A DNA stretch of 33,238 bases from Nitrospirota bacterium (lineage in GTDB: Bacteria; Nitrospinota_A; UBA7883; JAJRTC01). Made by a program: the position numbers and the translations under genes. Where the stretch lies: positions 1 to 33,238 of the forward strand of contig JAJRTC010000005.1 of assembly GCA_024278445.1 (NCBI GenBank), written 5' to 3'. Positions 14,487-33,223 of the stretch are shown piece by piece. The notes below the pieces were generated by a model that saw only the letters and a list, made by a program, of their open reading frames with translations, was not told the origin of the DNA and ran no database searches. Every line of letters begins with the position of its first letter. The stretch's first letter is position 1.

Positions 14487-15785
14487 TTATACTGCTTGAG
14501 GTATCAGCTTCGCCAAAACGCGTTTTAACCGTTCAGAATTTCTCTTCCCGGCAGAAACCACATCGTTGTGCGAGATTGTTTTCTCCAGTTCGGCCGATGC
14601 TTCGTTAGATATGATCGCAAGGCCCGTGACGGTAACGCCCATACGTGCCGCTACCAGTGCTTCCGGAACCATAGACATGCACACGGCGTCTGCGCCGATG
14701 GAGCTTAAAAATTTTCTTTCGGCAGGCGTTTCATAAACCGGCCCGCGGACTGCCGCCAATATGCCTCTTTTGGGGCGAACGCGCGCCGATCGGCAGAGCC
14801 TGTCATATTTATCGGCAAGTGAATCGTCGTATATCGAGTTGCAATTAACAAAAACGGAAGGATCGCTGTTGGGGTCAACTCCGAAGAGAGGATTGTCTCC
14901 CATAAGGTTTATCTGATCTTCCACAAGCATTATGTCCCCCTTTCTAAAGTCGGGGTTTATAGCTCCAGCCGAAGTCGTGATGATAAGATGCTCCACACCC
15001 AAAGCCAGTATGGCCTGAATCGCGTGAGTTGTTTCGCTCATGGAACCTGTCTCATAGTAGTGGGAGCGCCCTGCGCTAAAAAGCAGCGGTACGCCGTCGT
15101 GCGAACCTGTTACAAAATGCCCCGGATGCCCTTCCGCCATCGGGAGAGGGAATTCCGGTATATCGGTAAACTTTATTTTTTTATCGCCAAAAAACTCTGC
15201 CGCTGGAAAAAGGCCGGAACCTAAAATTACCGCTACTTTAGGTTTGGTTACGATCTTGCGGTTAAGGTAGCCGATAGACCTTTTTATTTTCCCCTCTCTG
15301 GGGCCGAATATAGCTTCTCTTTTACGCCGAACCGCCGCTTCCATGACGTCTGGGACTACTATGGCCGGGCCCGGCCCTGAATCTGCATCGTCTCGTGACC
15401 TGCGCCTTATCGGGATAGCTCTTTTTTTTATTTTGGATACTTTAACGCGAAGAAGGGTGCCGTCCGGCTGGTTGCGAAGTTCGTATTCGTCTTCCTCTGG
15501 TTTAACAGCAGGTTTTTTTGTGACGGTTTTTTTCTTGGCAGTTTTTAAGGTCGTGGTTTTCTTTTTTGCCGGTTTTCTTCTAACCTTTGCTTTTGCGGCC
15601 GCCGGTTTTTTTTCGTCATCGGGTGCGACGCTCTCATCTTTCGGTGGTGTCGCCGTGGGCTTGCGCCTTAGGCCGGAGCGTGTTGTGACTCTTCTGGCGT
15701 CCCGTTTCGCTTTTCGGTTACTGCTTCTTGCCGAACCTTCTGTTCCTTCAGCTTCGATGCTTTCAGTTATTTTATTTTCGTTCAT
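14487..15785 (-). CDS. Purine nucleoside phosphorylase (trimeric PNP/MTAP family) with ~147-aa Lys/Arg/Ala/Pro-rich N-terminal extension
   Basis: Catalytic part VAVILGSGLFP...GHPGHFVTGSHDGVPLLFSAGRSHYYE...RGPVYETPAERKFLSSIGADAVCMSMVPEALVAARMG...ISNEAS; N-terminus KPAAAKAKVRRKPAKKKTTTLKTAKKKTVTKKPAVK. Overlaps the upstream ORF stop by 4 nt. Confidence 0.9.
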   Translation of the reverse strand: MNENKITESIEAEGTEGSARSSNRKAKRDARRVTTRSGLRRKPTATPPKDESVAPDDEKKPAAAKAKVRRKPAKKKTTTLKTAKKKTVTKKPAVKPEEDEYELRNQPDGTLLRVKVSKIKKRAIPIRRRSRDDADSGPGPAIVVPDVMEAAVRRKREAIFGPREGKIKRSIGYLNRKIVTKPKVAVILGSGLFPAAEFFGDKKIKFTDIPEFPLPMAEGHPGHFVTGSHDGVPLLFSAGRSHYYETGSMSETTHAIQAILALGVEHLIITTSAGAINPDFRKGDIMLVEDQINLMGDNPLFGVDPNSDPSVFVNCNSIYDDSLADKYDRLCRSARVRPKRGILAAVRGPVYETPAERKFLSSIGADAVCMSMVPEALVAARMGVTVTGLAIISNEASAELEKTISHNDVVSAGKRNSERLKRVLAKLIPQAV

Positions 15786-25786: not shown

Positions 25787-25999
25787 AATGTCCAGTTTAA
25801 ATTGTATGAATATCCCACCACGGCCAGCTTTCGGACCTGCCCTATGGTTTTAGCCGATTCAACCGCCGTGAAGTGTGGCGGGTAGAAATAGCTTGCCAAA
25901 AAATCCGCCTTGGCTATAATTTCCATTTGCGGTTCAGCGGATCATTGTACCGCAATATTATTGATAGTACACATAAAACATAACAAGGGTGACTATATT

Positions 26000-27172
26000 A
26001 TGGGGCGCATTAATTATTTATTCACTTCGGAATCGGTTTCGGAGGGACATCCAGACAAAATAAGCGATCAGATTTCTGACGCGGTTCTTGACGCCATAAT
26101 AGGGCAGGACCCTATGGCTCGTGTGGCGTGCGAAACTTTTTGCACCACGGGTCTCATTCTTGTTGGCGGTGAATATTCCTGCAAACCGGAAGTGAAGATC
26201 GATATAGACGCCATAGCAAGGGGCGTTGTTAAGGATATCGGATATAACGATTCATCCTTGGGTTTTGACTATAAATCATGTTCCGTGTTAAACGCCATGC
26301 ATGAGCAGTCCGCCGATATAGCCCAGGGCGTTGCCCGCGAAAACCCGGAAGACCAGGGCGCAGGCGACCAGGGCATCATGTTCGGTTATGCCACTAACGA
26401 AACCAAAGAGCTTATGCCTCTGCCGGTCGTTCTGTCTCACAAACTTCTTTTAAAGCTTGCAGAACTTCGCAAAAGCGGTGAAATGCCTTTCCTGAGGCCG
26501 GATAGCAAGGCGCAGGTGACGGTTGAATATACGAACAGGAGCCCGCACAGGATAGACACGGTTGTCATCTCCACACAGCATAGCGAGGATATTTCCGAAG
26601 AGAACTTGGCAAAAGAGGTGATTGAGAAGGTTATAAAACCTGTTATGCCTAAAGAACTTTTCGACGAGAAAAAGGTTAAATATCATATCAACCCAACAGG
26701 TCGTTTTATTATCGGCGGCCCGCATGGCGACACCGGCTTAACCGGCAGGAAGATTATCGTAGATACGTATGGTGGCGTTGGCTCCCACGGCGGCGGCGCT
26801 TTCTCTGGTAAAGACCCAAGCAAGGTTGACCGTTCGGCTTCCTACATGGCCCGTTATATAGCGAAGAATCTCGTCGCGGCGGGAATTATGGATAAATGCG
26901 AAGTTCAGTTAGCCTACGCTATCGGCGTGGCGGAGCCTGTCTCCGTTCTGGTAGATTCGTTCGGCACGCGTAAGGTAGATCAGGAAAAAATCCACGAAAT
27001 CGTTCGCGATAACTTTGATCTGCGCCCGTATGGGATATTGAAGACTCTTGATCTGCGTCGCCCGATCTACCGCCAAACAGCGGCATACGGCCATTTTGGG
27101 CGCGACCTTCCCGATTTTACCTGGGAAAAAACTGACAAGGCCGACGCTCTGCGCAAAGCCGCCGGACTTTAA
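26000..27172 (+). CDS. metK: S-adenosylmethionine synthetase
   Basis: [88 protein letters not shown] at 26000 preferred over 25910. Confidence 0.97.
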
Positions 27173-27270: not shown

Positions 27271-28632
27271 TTAGAATCCTTTTGTATCTTCAATTTTCCG
27301 CTGAAGGTCGTGCGGAGATTCGAAAATAAAAACTCTGCCCTTTTTATGTTTTATAAGAAAATTTAGTTTGTCTGACATAAATAGCAAATCTGTTCTTGCT
27401 GTGTCATAAGCAATATCATGAGTGTGTTGATGCTCGTTAATCTTGTAAACATGTCCTGGGTGTTTTAAGGCATGCCGAAGTAAGGTTTTCTGCCTGAAAT
27501 TAAGATCCCCTCGCAATCGGTGAGTGCTTTCCAGCATTTTTTCAGCTGATTTTATTTCTTGTGCTTTCTTTTCAATATATTCCTGTAGTGCTTTGATTGC
27601 TTTTTTTATTACGTTTATTTGATGGATAATGAAATAGGTTGTATCGTTGTCGTCAGTCTCTGTATGCAGGAAGGCTTTTCCATATTGGGCTGGTGCCTGT
27701 TTAATAATATGTGATATGGAAATAAACTCCATTAGCCAATAACCGCTATTTAATGCCGACCAATAAAAAAGTGCCCTAGCTGTTCGACCATTACCATCTA
27801 CAAACGGGTGGTCATATCCCAACATGAAATGTAAGAGTATGGCTCTCAATATTGGATGAATGAAGTATTTTGAGCTTTCATTGTTAGCAAACCGACAAAG
27901 TAATTCCATCCGTTTGGGTAGTTCGTTTGCATTTGGTGGTGTGTGTAGTTCCGTATTGTCACGCGCATCAACTATCTGTATGTCGTCCCCTGTAGAGCGG
28001 TATGCCCCGGCATCGGTTAGGTTTTCCAAGGTTTTATCCGTAAGGATTTTATGAAGCTCAAGAATAAATGCTGGAGTTAGTTTTTCGTTTTTATTTTCAC
28101 GAATAAATTGCATCGTAAGATAGTTATTAAAAATCATCTGCTCACTTTTGTCATGCGGCTTTCGTCCCGTTAGTAACATTTCTTTGGCCACTTTACGTGT
28201 TGTTATAGCTCCTTCTAGTTGGCTTGAGTCGATCGATTCATTTATAAGTGATCGGATAATATAGGTGTTGCGCATTTGGGGGTTAGCTACTCCTATATCT
28301 CCCGATATGTTGCCCGTAGCGTTTTTATCAAGCCAGTGCAGGTTTTCCAAAATAAAATCAGGGGTTGAAAATACAAATTGGCTATTTGATTTATCTAAAA
28401 GACTTATTTGCTTGTATGTTTTTATTCGGGCAAACTTAATCCCAGTCCACCACTCTGCCGAGGTTAATCCTTTTGGAGGTTCATGGTGTTGTAGCTTATC
28501 CCAATGCAGATAACGTCCTTTAGAATCAGTCGCTTTAAAGCTAGTGATAAGTCGACGGGCCTTGTCAAGATCCGATGCGGATAGCTCATCAAGTACTTTT
28601 GCAAAATCAGGAGGACTCGACGGTATTTTCAT
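27271..28632 (-). CDS. Fic family protein, class II-like with N-terminal inhibitory motif and C-terminal winged-helix-like region
   Basis: Fic core HPFVDGNGRTAR; upstream inhibitory-helix-like SIDSSQLEGA; C-terminal LNFRQKTLLRHALKHPGHVYKINEHQHTHDIAYDTARTDL. Track ORF begins at 28713; likely start is MKIPSSPP at 28632 (or 28677). Confidence 0.9.
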   Translation of the reverse strand: MKIPSSPPDFAKVLDELSASDLDKARRLITSFKATDSKGRYLHWDKLQHHEPPKGLTSAEWWTGIKFARIKTYKQISLLDKSNSQFVFSTPDFILENLHWLDKNATGNISGDIGVANPQMRNTYIIRSLINESIDSSQLEGAITTRKVAKEMLLTGRKPHDKSEQMIFNNYLTMQFIRENKNEKLTPAFILELHKILTDKTLENLTDAGAYRSTGDDIQIVDARDNTELHTPPNANELPKRMELLCRFANNESSKYFIHPILRAILLHFMLGYDHPFVDGNGRTARALFYWSALNSGYWLMEFISISHIIKQAPAQYGKAFLHTETDDNDTTYFIIHQINVIKKAIKALQEYIEKKAQEIKSAEKMLESTHRLRGDLNFRQKTLLRHALKHPGHVYKINEHQHTHDIAYDTARTDLLFMSDKLNFLIKHKKGRVFIFESPHDLQRKIEDTKGF

Positions 28633-28679
28633 TTTCGCTATTAACAAGTATTGTAATTCATATACAATAACCACCATAA

Positions 28680-28894
28680 ATACCAGTTCTTTAAATTTGG
28701 TATTTGGTAGCATTGTACATCAAAACAAAGGGAAATACCAATACCAAAAAAATTGGTAGCAAATTGGTATTTTAAAATAACCAGTAAAACAAGAAGTTAA
28801 GTGCGTATTGTATTGCTTGATACGCGAAAATTTGCAATCCGGAGAATTTAACCACTAAATACCAATACCAATTGAATTGGTATTAAATTGGTAG
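28680..28894. repeat. Three clusters of ATACCA / TGGTAT(G) short repeats in direct and inverted orientation
   Basis: Cluster I AAATACCAGTTCTTTAAATTTGGTATTTGGTAG; II AAATACCAATACCAAAAAAATTGGTAGCAAATTGGTATTT (28733-28772); III AAATACCAATACCAATTGAATTGGTATTAAATTGGTAG (28857-28893). Confidence 0.85.
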
Positions 28895-28975: not shown

Positions 28976-30409
28976 CTAGTAGCGATAGGTGTCAGGTTTA
29001 TACGGGCCATCCACCGGGATGCCCAGATAGTCGGCCTGCTCCTGCGAGAGTTGGGTTAACTTCACGCCGATTCTCTCAAGATGCAAGCGTGCCACTTCCT
29101 CGTCCAGCTTTTTGGAGAGGGTATAAACACCAACTTCGTGTTTGTTCTTCCAAAGGTCGATCTGCGCCAACGTCTGGTTTGTAAACGAGTTGCTCATCAC
29201 GAACGATGGATGCCCTGTAGCGCACCCAAGGTTGACGAGCCTCCCGTCTGCGAGAATAAAAATAGAATTGCCGGTTTCGTCGAAAGTCCATTTATCGACC
29301 TGCGGCTTTATATTAAGCTTTTTTACGCCGTCAAACTTTTCCAGTTCAGACATCTGTATCTCGTTATCGAAATGCCCGATGTTAGAGACGATCGCCTGAT
29401 CTTTCATCTTGCGCATATGTTCTAACGTGATGATGTCTTTGTTACCGGTTGTTGTGACATAGATATCTCCCTCGGCAAGGGCGTCTTCGATAGGTTTAAC
29501 TTCATAACCTTCCATGGCCGCCTGTAATGCACAAATCGGGTCGATCTCGGTTACGATAACCCTTGCGCCAAGGCCCTTGGCCGCCTGCGCACAGCCTTTG
29601 CCAACGTCGCCATATCCGCAGATAACGGCTACTTTGCCTGCGACCATCACGTCGGTGGCACGTTTAATGCCGTCCATCAGCGATTCCCTGCAACCGTAAA
29701 GGTTGTCGAATTTCGATTTTGTAACAGAGTCGTTAACGTTTATAGCAGGAACTAAAAGCTCGCCTTTTTCCATCATCTGATAAAGCCTGTGGACGCCGGT
29801 TGTCGTTTCTTCGGAGACGCCGCGCCACTCTTTTACAACGTTGCCCCAAAAACCGGGCTCCTCGGCCAGTGTTTTTTTCAAAAGGTCGTTGATGATTTTA
29901 AGCTCGGCGTTATCGGTCGGCTCGTCCAGAATAGAAGCGTTTTTTTCAGCCTGGTTGCCACGATGAATAACGAGTGTGGCATCGCCGCCATCGTCTACGA
30001 TTAACTGTGGGCCTTTGCCGCCGGGCCATGTTAACGCCTCCTTTGTGCACCACCAATATTCTTCCAGCGTTTCACCTTTCCATGCGAAAACGGGCACGCC
30101 GGTGGCGGCGATTGCGGCGGCGGCGTGGTCTTGCGTCGAAAAAATATTGCAGGACGCCCAACGCACGTCGGCACCAAGCTCGACCAGTGTTTCTATGAGT
30201 ACGGCTGTCTGGATTGTCATGTGCAGGCTTCCCATTATCCGCACACCTTGCAGTGGCTTTTCGGGGCCGTATTTTTCACGGGTCACCATGAGGCCGGGCA
30301 TTTCGCTTTCGGCAATTGTGATTTCCTTACGCCCGAAGTCGGCAAGGGAGATATCTTTTACTTTATAGTCTGTTGCGGTTGCTGTAGTCACGTTGGTTTT
30401 CTCCTTCAT
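28976..30409 (-). CDS. ahcY: Adenosylhomocysteinase (S-adenosylhomocysteine hydrolase)
   Basis: [92 protein letters not shown]-terminal [10 protein letters not shown]. Confidence 0.98.
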
Positions 30410-30430: not shown

Positions 30431-31156
30431 TTATGCAACGATTTCATATAGTGAGACTGGTTCCGGTATAAAAGTAAGTTTTTCAATTTTCGGACCGGTT
30501 ATTTTAATGTTGTCTTCCAGTTTTTTTACCACCTCAGCCGTGGCGATTATTCCGCCATCAGATGACGAGGCAAACTCCAGCGCCCGGAACGCAATGTTCA
30601 CAGGGTCGCCGATTATGTCTATCTGTTCATAGTTCGGATGCCCAAGCCCGCCTAAAAATATCTCGCCCGCCGAGAGGGCAACCGTTATGCTCTCGCCCGT
30701 TACGGCTCTTGCGCTAAGTGCCGCTTTTACTGCCCGCTCCCTATGCTTGGGCCCGGAGAAGAAGCAAAGAAGCCCGTCGCCCATTTGTTTTATAGGCACG
30801 CCATCGTTTTTAGTTATAGCCTCTGTTAGCTGGTAGAAAAACGCGTTGGCCCATCCGGCAAGCTTGCGCGGCGATGTTCCCTGCGATTTTTTGGCATATC
30901 CTTTAACGCTGGATACAAAAACCGTGGCCTCGAAAACATCTGCCCCTTCGTCGTATAGCCCCAGGAGCCAGTCGATTGAGACGTCTAAAAGTTTTGCGAT
31001 CTGCGGCAGTAACAGAATGTCGGGCGCGTTCTCGCCCCGCTCCCATTTTGATACCGCCTGTGACGATACCTGCAGGGCGTTTGCGATGTCAGCCTGTTTT
31101 AAGCCGCGCTCTTCCCTGCACTTTTTTATTTTTGCGCCCAGTTCGTCTAACAGCAT
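30431..31156 (-). CDS. XRE-family HTH fused to class III nucleotidyl cyclase-homology domain
   Basis: N-term GAKIKKCREERGLKQADIANALQVSSQAVSKWERGENAPDILLLPQIAKLLDVSIDWLLG (HTH_3); C-term ATVFVSSVKGYAKKS...GVPIKQMGDGLLCFFSG...YEQIDIIGDPVNIAFRALEFASSSDGGIIAT (class III cyclase pattern). Confidence 0.85.
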   Translation of the reverse strand: MLLDELGAKIKKCREERGLKQADIANALQVSSQAVSKWERGENAPDILLLPQIAKLLDVSIDWLLGLYDEGADVFEATVFVSSVKGYAKKSQGTSPRKLAGWANAFFYQLTEAITKNDGVPIKQMGDGLLCFFSGPKHRERAVKAALSARAVTGESITVALSAGEIFLGGLGHPNYEQIDIIGDPVNIAFRALEFASSSDGGIIATAEVVKKLEDNIKITGPKIEKLTFIPEPVSLYEIVA

Positions 31157-31338
31157 TTTTAGATTATAGTAGATGATGTAATCATAATCGACAATAACGC
31201 CTAAGTTTAGTTTACTGGCGGCATTGTTGATTTCCCGCCCGACCTACCAAAGGAAACCGTTTTATCCGGCTTTGCCGTGAAACCAGATTTCAGGTTTCGG
31301 TTTAAAAATGTTATATAAGAGTAACATTAAGAAAAACA

Positions 31339-32121
31339 GTGGATAACCTAAAAATGCCGGTTAGAGAAACATTAAAAGCGCCCGGAGGGATTTTATACCT
31401 TATAAGAGGTTTAAAACTTATTTTCTCCGATTTTGCCATATTGCGTTTAGCCGTGGCGCCAGCCTTGGTCAATATTGCGCTTTTTGGCGTTTTGTTTATG
31501 TCTTTCAACTACTTTGCATATGAAATTTCTGCATATGTTTTCGATCAGTCGTCGCAGGAGTGGTATTGGTACGCTATTTCCACCGTGGTTGGAATTTTGT
31601 TTTTTTTAGCTTCAATACTTGTTGTGTTGTTTGGTTTTGTGGCGATAGGGCTTATCGTCGCCGCGCCGTTTAACGATATGCTCGCATCGGCGATTGAACG
31701 CAAGATAACGGGTAACGTTGCTGAAGCAAAGATGTCGCTTATAAAACTTGCCGGATATACGATGAAAAATGAAGCAAAAAAAATGTCGGTTATAATCGCC
31801 GTTCAGTTTGCCCTGCTTTTGGTAAACCTTGTGCCGGGCATCGGGCAGGCAATTTTTTTAATAGTAAGCCCGTGCTTTATGGCGCTTGTAATGGCATACG
31901 AGTTTACAGGATATACGCTTGACCGTCGTGGGCTCTCGTTTGCCGATAAAAGGAGATACCTGAAGTCGCATTTAGGGCGGTCGATGGGGTTTGGCCTTGC
32001 CGTATCGGCGACAGTGCTTATACCCCTGCTTAATTTTATGTTACTGCCGTTGGCCGTTGCGGGCGGAACGTTAATGGTTATAGAGAATCCACCAGAAGAG
32101 GAGTTCGCTGTTAATGACTGA
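31339..32121 (+). CDS. EI24/CysZ-like multi-pass membrane protein
   Basis: GGILYLIRGLKLIFSDFAILRLAVAPALVNIALF...VGIILF-like TM segments...GFVAIGLIVAAPFNDMLASAIERKITG...YEFTGYTLDRRGLSFADKRRYLKSH; EI24-like pattern. Confidence 0.75.
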   Translation: MDNLKMPVRETLKAPGGILYLIRGLKLIFSDFAILRLAVAPALVNIALFGVLFMSFNYFAYEISAYVFDQSSQEWYWYAISTVVGILFFLASILVVLFGFVAIGLIVAAPFNDMLASAIERKITGNVAEAKMSLIKLAGYTMKNEAKKMSVIIAVQFALLLVNLVPGIGQAIFLIVSPCFMALVMAYEFTGYTLDRRGLSFADKRRYLKSHLGRSMGFGLAVSATVLIPLLNFMLLPLAVAGGTLMVIENPPEEEFAVND

Positions 32122-33067
32122 TTCTTTATTAAAAGAAACCGTGAAATTTTATTTTTCGTTCAACGACCCTGAAAGTTTTATTTTATTGCCGGCGGTTAAA
32201 AGCCTGTCTGGCGCATATAAAATAAACATCGACTACATTCCGGTTTCCATGTTCGATAACGAAAAACTTTTTTCGCAAGACGATGCTGTCTGCAAATATT
32301 ACAAGGCAGACACAGAGCGGGTTTCTAAAAAAGCGGACAGAAAACTTAAGTATATAGATAGCCCGCAAAATTCGAAAGCCGTGTGTCGCGCAAAGTTTTT
32401 AGCGGACGAAAAAATGCTGGGGTTAAAGTATATAAACCTGTTGTTTGCACTGCGATGGCTGAGCGGGAAAGATATCTCGAATATAGCCGATATTATTGAC
32501 GGCCTTAAGTTTCTTGAGTTTGACGATGCGGAAATAAAAGATGCTCTGATGAACGATAAATATAAAGACGCGCTTGATGAAACTGAAAAAATGGCAAAAG
32601 CCGATGGGGTTATCGGGGCTCCGTTTCTCTCGTTTCGTGGAGAAGGATACCTTGGGGCCGACCGCTTAAGTTACCTTGAGGATATTCTGAAATCTGACCC
32701 GCTATTAATCATCCATCACGATGCCGCCTATGGTGTTATGTCCGCCGAGGAATTGAAGGCCAGGCTTGACAAAAAAGAGCCTACTTTTGTTCTGGACGTG
32801 CGTATCCCGAAAGATTTTTCAGCAGGCCATGTGCCGGGTGCCAACTGTCTCACCGCGAGAATCATTCAGCGCAATATTGAGAGGCTAGATCGAGACTGGA
32901 CGATAGTCGTGGTGGGCGAAGGTGGCGTGGACGCTTCTGAAACCGCATTCATATTGGCGTCTGCCGGTTTTAAAGACGTTTATGCGTTGTCGCAAGGTTA
33001 CGGCTCCTGGAGTGGTGAAGTCGAAACCGGTCTTGATAAATGGCAGGATAAATTAACAAGTAGCTGA
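32114..33067 (+). CDS. DsbA-like/HCCA isomerase-type thioredoxin-fold domain fused to rhodanese-like domain
   Basis: N-term VKFYFSFNDPESFILLPAVK...KADGVIGAPFLSFRGEGYLGADRLSYLEDIL (DsbA/kappa-GST-like); C-term MSAEELKARLDKKEPTFVLDVRIPKDFSAGHVPGANCLTARI...ILASAGFKDVYALSQGYGSWSG (rhodanese fold). Confidence 0.75.
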   Translation: MTDSLLKETVKFYFSFNDPESFILLPAVKSLSGAYKINIDYIPVSMFDNEKLFSQDDAVCKYYKADTERVSKKADRKLKYIDSPQNSKAVCRAKFLADEKMLGLKYINLLFALRWLSGKDISNIADIIDGLKFLEFDDAEIKDALMNDKYKDALDETEKMAKADGVIGAPFLSFRGEGYLGADRLSYLEDILKSDPLLIIHHDAAYGVMSAEELKARLDKKEPTFVLDVRIPKDFSAGHVPGANCLTARIIQRNIERLDRDWTIVVVGEGGVDASETAFILASAGFKDVYALSQGYGSWSGEVETGLDKWQDKLTSS

Positions 33068-33223
33068 AAAAGTCGTTCAAACTGTCATTCTGAGGAGCCG
33101 CAGGCGACGAAGAATCTCATAACACTGTTAATATCAACGGTTGAGATTCTTCGCGGAGCCTGTCATGAGTGAACGAAGTGAATCGAACGGGCTCAGGATG
33201 ACAACTGAAAATAGTTTTTCAGC
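33063..33223. mobile_element. MITE-like / dispersed palindromic repeat element with imperfect terminal inverted repeats
   Basis: Left end GCTGAAAAAGTCGTTCAAACTGTCATTCTGAGGAGCC; reverse complement of right end GCTGAAAAACTATTTTCAGTTGTCATCCTGAGCC. Internal AAGAATCTCA/TGAGATTCTT inverted pair. Confidence 0.75.

Follow-up and report, generated by a model that had tools for sequence, protein, structure and literature searches.

A putative XRE-cyclase fusion regulator encoded upstream of ahcY and predicted to respond to an adenosyl metabolite

The window, by which we mean the whole 33,238-nucleotide stretch analysed here, carries a gene for a putative transcription regulator located directly upstream of ahcY. 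The genes relevant to this locus and the intergenic region between two of them are as follows.

25910-27172, plus strand: metK, encoding methionine adenosyltransferase (TIGR01034, 608 bits).
28976-30409, minus strand: ahcY, encoding S-adenosylhomocysteine hydrolase, 477 amino acids (TIGR00936, 629 bits; cut-off 497.6).
30431-31156, minus strand: the regulator gene, encoding an XRE/HTH_3 domain joined to a class III cyclase-homology domain, 241 amino acids (ATG start, from the open reading frame listing).
31157-31338, no strand given: the divergent intergenic region between the regulator gene and the cysZ-like gene, which contains the predicted operator (from the sequence and the open reading frames).
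31339-32121, plus strand: a gene for a CysZ/EI24-family membrane protein (PF07264, 131 bits).
32114-33067, plus strand: a gene for a fusion of DsbA-like and rhodanese domains (Pfam).

The ahcY ATG is located 21 nucleotides past the regulator stop codon on the same strand. The two genes probably share an operon, of which ahcY is the probable main target. The cysZ-like gene is a divergent neighbour of this pair and is conserved there in several relatives, which is an observation of synteny and carries no evidence of regulation. The DsbA-like thioredoxin-rhodanese fusion is likewise conserved beside these three genes in several relatives. A gene for a 480-amino-acid Fic-domain protein (27271-28713, minus strand; PF02661, 66 bits) is found between metK and ahcY, and in one relative (G010) an XRE/HigA-like gene and others occupy its place.

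A first-pass annotation made from the letters alone had described the 241-amino-acid protein as a fusion of a helix-turn-helix with a cyclase-homology domain, and the profile searches bear this out. With the Pfam models, HTH_3 matches residues 10-64 (60.4 bits, E = 1.7e-16, cut-off 23) and Guanylate_cyc matches residues 76-214 (23.4 bits, E = 4.9e-05, curated cut-off 21.9), and the cyclase-homology domain as a whole spans residues 76 to about 240. Among the other members scanned, HTH_3 scores range from 38.9 to 64.1 bits, and Guanylate_cyc scores in relatives range from 16 to 24 bits and are thus partly under the cut-off. A phmmer search of the PDB with the window protein returned the cyclase structure 2w01 as the best match (E = 6.8e-12, residues 71-239) and the phytochrome-cyclase fusion 6fht as the runner-up. 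As judged from these matches, the domain shares the class III cyclase fold. A single-sequence AlphaFold prediction of the window protein gave no usable model (pLDDT 42), and no fold search was based on it.

There are 24 genomes in which this architecture is observed, and they belong to four groups that are classed as separate phyla. Within the window's order, a full-length copy is present in 8 of the 12 genomes (counting that of the window), with 55-67% identity and in each case directly upstream of ahcY. A profile search of 385 genomes yielded three further full-length matches from other phyla, with E-values of 1e-68 to 1e-90, and a wide gap separates these from the remaining matches, which begin at about 1e-18 and nearly all cover the cyclase domain only. 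Carriers make up 12 of 68, 3 of 7 and 1 of 3 genomes in the three other phylum-level groups. In one carrier (G451) the regulator gene is split across two contig ends. A search of genome contigs for related loci produced only matches to the HTH, in Ruminococcus.

The immediate downstream gene on the same strand is ahcY in 23 of the 24 carriers, representing three of the phylum-level groups, and it usually begins within about 150 nucleotides. In the only carrier of the fourth group (G165), the gene immediately downstream is metE, which encodes the cobalamin-independent methionine synthase. The regulator tree follows the phylum-level groups, and the association between regulator and ahcY therefore looks old rather than recently spread. 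We reject a one-off degenerate gene or pseudogene, because the orthologues in the four groups are open and full-length and share the same neighbour. There are also differences in AhcY length within the class: carriers have proteins of about 470-485 amino acids, and most non-carriers have an open frame of about 425-460 amino acids (loci L037, L033 and L036 versus L029-L035). Two non-carriers of the window's order (G005 and G010) have the long type of ahcY with no adjoining regulator of the XRE-cyclase type.

Residue conservation was counted over 23 full-length members, the window copy included. In the alignment with 2w01, the window segment VFVSSVKGY lies opposite ILTSDLRGF, which places Ser83 at the position of the first metal-binding Asp, as the first-pass annotation had proposed. 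An Asp is found at this position in none of the 23 members, and Ser, Gly, Thr or Ala takes its place. The same annotation had noted that the second metal Asp is kept in the motif KQMGDG, and this residue (Asp127) proves to be invariant. It had also listed an intact N-x3-R motif (VNIAFR), and Asn187 and Arg191 are indeed both present in the window copy. The Asn is found in all members, but only 3 of the 23 (the window copy being one of them) retain the transition-state Arg, with Leu in 17, Gly in 2 and Ile in 1, so that the complete motif is no feature of the family. Thus, neither the two-Asp metal pair nor the Asn and Arg pair of active cyclases is met at the family level.

The residues that would contact a purine exhibit the opposite pattern of conservation. 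In the adenylate cyclase Ma1120, K101 and D157 form the pair that specifies ATP (PMC4215837), and a Glu488 to Lys change converts the guanylate cyclase Cya2 to an adenylate cyclase (PMC5995499). By reference to these two studies, Lys123 and Asp180 were assigned as an adenylate-type purine pair, and both are invariant in the 23 members, as is a GHPxY motif at residues 172-176. Judging from these counts, the base-reading residues are strongly constrained and the positions of the first metal Asp and the transition-state Arg are not. A degenerate pattern of this kind does not reflect chance, because the architecture and the neighbouring gene are both retained in orthologues with 55-67% identity. 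A normal adenylate cyclase is rejected on the absence of the first metal Asp from all 23 members and the loss of the Arg from 20. Because the adenine residues are kept and the catalytic ones are lost, we infer a sensor for an adenine-containing ligand rather than a cyclase, since a domain that bound such a ligand without cyclising it would be expected to look like this. The retention of the second metal Asp and Asn187 means that binding of a nucleotide triphosphate or cAMP is not excluded. In the DNA-binding domain, the QAVSKWE recognition-helix region is invariant in all 23 members, as would be expected if the operator is conserved.

A search for such an operator used 150 nucleotides upstream of the start codons in 19 regions, one per genus. 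Unsupervised discovery with one site per sequence returned the motif TCAACnnnnGCGTCATTG with a log-likelihood ratio of 179, compared with a mean of 58.7 (standard deviation 2.8, maximum 63.9) for 40 dinucleotide shuffles. The value of 179 is somewhat inflated by relatedness, though the sequences span four phylum-level groups. The common form of the motif is YCAAC-N5-CGTCATTG, and it is found 50-100 nucleotides upstream of the regulator gene. In the window, the predicted elements are as follows.

31192-31209, minus strand: the predicted operator TAAACTTAGGCGTTATTG, from motif discovery (pattern match 31192-31208), for which there are no binding data.
31189-31194, minus strand: a candidate -35 hexamer, TTGTCG, whose TTG is the last three bases of the operator (from the sequence and a spacing survey).
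About 31163-31171, minus strand: a candidate -10 element within TACTATAAT, whose exact hexamer is uncertain (from the sequence and the spacing survey).

The window operator is located 53 nucleotides upstream of the regulator ATG and falls within the region (31157-31338) that the first-pass annotation had named for EMSA. In most carriers, the spacing survey places the TTG of the motif 16-19 nucleotides before a -10-like hexamer, in the position of a -35 box, and the motif overlaps this predicted box of the regulator's own promoter. The motif and its position are observed in the aligned regions; that the protein binds there is inferred. Dyad symmetry is weak and amounts to CAA-N11-TTG. Two carriers (G003 and G452) have only weak sites, and a third (G008) has no convincing one. 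Thirteen relatives of the same class have no regulator, and no comparable site precedes their ahcY: the best score there is 10.1, whereas the motif sites score 12-26. Between the candidate -35 and -10 elements of the window (31173-31185) there is also a perfect 5-bp inverted repeat, ATGAT-TAC-ATCAT, with no obvious equivalent in relatives.

A strict pattern scan of 19 genomes produced matches that are mostly within genes. There is an excess of forward over reversed-pattern matches, to which we give no weight since it could arise from codon usage, and a wider regulon drawn from the genome-wide matches was rejected since they lie mostly inside reading frames. The window genome has a single supported site, its further matches being inside genes. 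There are only two informative intergenic matches, one about 70 nucleotides before the metH frame in G448 and the other directly before ahcY, after the regulator gene, in G452. With the position weight matrix, the sites upstream of metH score 22.3 bits in G447 and 23.4 bits in G448 (99% point of the null, 12.8), and the two genomes represent two species within a single genus. Weaker conserved sites precede metH in G434 (12.7) and G435 (11.1). The credible extra sites retained are those before metH of G447 and G448 and before ahcY of G452.

Upstream regions of metK (25) and metF (22) contain no site above 11 bits and none that is convincing. The metK gene of the window, which has no operator upstream, and metF were both rejected as targets. 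RNA-based control of the regulator-ahcY operon was rejected as well, since there is no Rfam match in the window, and 36 ahcY, metK, metH and metF loci yield only two tRNAs and no riboswitch. The regulon predicted from these sites and gene arrangements consists of the regulator itself, ahcY and methionine synthase.

The closest known system by function is SahR of Proteobacteria, whose core regulon comprises sahR, ahcY, metH, metF and metK (PMC4239095). Like SahR, the XRE-cyclase protein is linked to its own gene, ahcY and methionine synthase genes, although here this set is met only by predicted sites or operon membership, and the signal S-adenosylhomocysteine (SAH) is known for SahR and merely proposed for the present regulator. 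SahR belongs to the ArsR family, recognizes a 20-bp palindromic site and controls metK and metF (PMC4239095). In contrast, the window protein has HTH_3 and no ArsR model among its Pfam matches, carries a cyclase domain, is associated with a different site, and has no detected sites before metK or metF. The SAH riboswitches of Proteobacteria also control ahcY and spare metK (PMC4239095), but they are RNA elements.

By architecture, the closest known proteins are the LuxR-cyclase regulators of Actinobacteria, which are likewise transcription regulators that contain a class III cyclase-homology domain. They differ in HTH family and gene context and include at least one working cyclase, Rv0386, and the portion of the source available to us describes no link to the methionine cycle (PMC3466318). 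Class III adenylate cyclases such as Ma1120 and Cya2 (structures 2w01 and 6fht) share the fold by homology and the Lys and Asp at the purine positions, whereas the regulator lacks the first metal Asp, mostly lacks the Arg and has a DNA-binding domain joined to it. Ordinary XRE/HTH_3 repressors (434, P22 c2 and SinR) share the DNA-binding domain and the likely operator mode, but the present protein has a cyclase fold at its C-terminus in place of the usual dimerisation or sensor domains. The open-access papers searched gave no account of either an XRE-cyclase fusion regulator or a cyclase-fold SAH sensor; the subscription literature was outside the search.

We consider it likely that the protein is a one-component regulator of the methionine/SAM cycle, in which an XRE domain acts on an 18-bp operator and a non-catalytic cyclase-fold domain senses an adenosyl metabolite. 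The first-pass annotation had favoured a nucleotide-sensing one-component regulator over a normal cyclase, and the invariant adenine residues, the lost catalytic residues, the adjacency to ahcY or metE and the operator-like motif lend support to this view. The methionine-cycle link, the operator and the likely ligand were absent from that annotation. On this view, the XRE domain would bind the operator where it overlaps the -35 box of the regulator's promoter and thereby control the regulator-ahcY operon, together with metH in some genomes and metE in one. The cyclase-fold domain would have lost catalysis and kept its adenine pocket, so that a dimer could bind an adenosyl metabolite, for which SAH, on which AhcY acts, is the most likely candidate. 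Under the simplest model, an autorepressor dimer would cover the -35 box until SAH builds up and fills the pocket. The DNA would then be released, the levels of AhcY and methionine synthase would increase, and SAH would be consumed. Dimeric sensing, repression and the identity of the ligand are all inferences. The more specific proposal, that a class III cyclase fold serves as a non-catalytic SAH receptor that has kept its adenine contacts, dropped the metal and phosphate chemistry and drives a DNA-binding domain, is tentative and falls a little short of an even chance.

It is possible, though we think it less likely, that the same regulator has an effector other than SAH, such as SAM acting as a corepressor in the manner of MetJ, adenosine as the other AhcY product, or an adenine nucleotide (for example ATP, ADP or cAMP) that conveys the energy or signalling state. 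What the pocket residues define is adenine and not the remainder of the ligand (PMC4215837), and a metal-nucleotide complex could use the invariant second metal Asp. A triphosphate is nevertheless hard to reconcile with the absence of the first metal Asp from every member and of the catalytic Arg from 20 of 23, and a SAM-sensing repressor would be expected to target metK, yet 25 metK loci lack the operator. Moreover, the regulator's link is to ahcY itself, which is also the case in known SAH-responsive systems (PMC4239095). We prefer SAH over SAM because of this link, because metK is spared and because the pocket is of the adenine type. Very little credence is due to a regulator that has residual cyclase activity and makes cAMP with one metal or an altered metal site, even though the second metal Asp, the Lys/Asp purine pair and the Asn are invariant, the window copy keeps the Arg, and the LuxR-type fusions include the active Rv0386 (PMC3466318). 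The catalytic losses run through the family while the pocket stays fixed, and an enzyme under selection does not show such a combination. The altered metal use that the first-pass annotation had allowed for a cyclase is disfavoured by the same loss of the transition-state Arg.

Repression is also open to question, and the protein might instead be a dual regulator or a class II activator that contacts RNA polymerase at the -35 position. Binding over a -35 box is common among activators too, and the -35 hexamers beyond TTG are poor in several carriers. We regard this alternative as rather unlikely, given that XRE proteins which regulate themselves from a site over the -35 box usually act as repressors. 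An improbable reading is that the motif is merely a conserved promoter, or that the adjacency is a chance operon, and that the regulator acts elsewhere. Conservation may partly be that of promoter sequence, because the best-conserved 3' half of the motif doubles as the -35 box, and the abundance of matches within genes would also fit. Against it, CAAC and CGTCA are conserved in four groups and reach 15 bp upstream of the -35 TTG, the motif recurs upstream of metH and, in G452, between the regulator gene and ahcY, and relatives without the regulator have no such site in front of ahcY. A chance operon does not easily explain adjacency to ahcY or metE in 24 of 24 carriers. We classify the XRE-cyclase protein as a one-component repressor that responds to a metabolite through a repurposed sensor domain of an unusual kind, where both repression and the ligand are inferred.

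SAH is a product inhibitor of almost all methyltransferases, and to our knowledge it is unknown how SAH is sensed in most uncultured phyla. The XRE-cyclase family offers a specific and testable answer that consists of a protein, an operator and a short list of ligands. If the proposal of SAH sensing is true, then a cyclase fold known for making second messengers serves as a plain small-molecule receptor after losing catalysis, and the family represents a class of SAH-responsive transcription factors that has not been described before, in which the fold of a signalling enzyme is reused as a metabolite sensor. A genetically encoded switch that responds to SAH would help methyltransferase assays.

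The window has two further features of note. A 432-amino-acid protein is encoded at 14490-15785 on the minus strand, and its nucleoside phosphorylase domain is restricted to the C-terminal half (residues 183-428); the N-terminal 180 or so residues have no Pfam match at the threshold used. Past the DsbA-rhodanese gene, at 33080-33215, there is an imperfect inverted repeat, TGTCATTCTGAGGAGCCGCAGGCGACGAAGAATCTC ... GAGATTCTTCGCGGAGCCTGTC ... CTCAGGATGACA, which resembles a small mobile repeat of the MITE-like kind.
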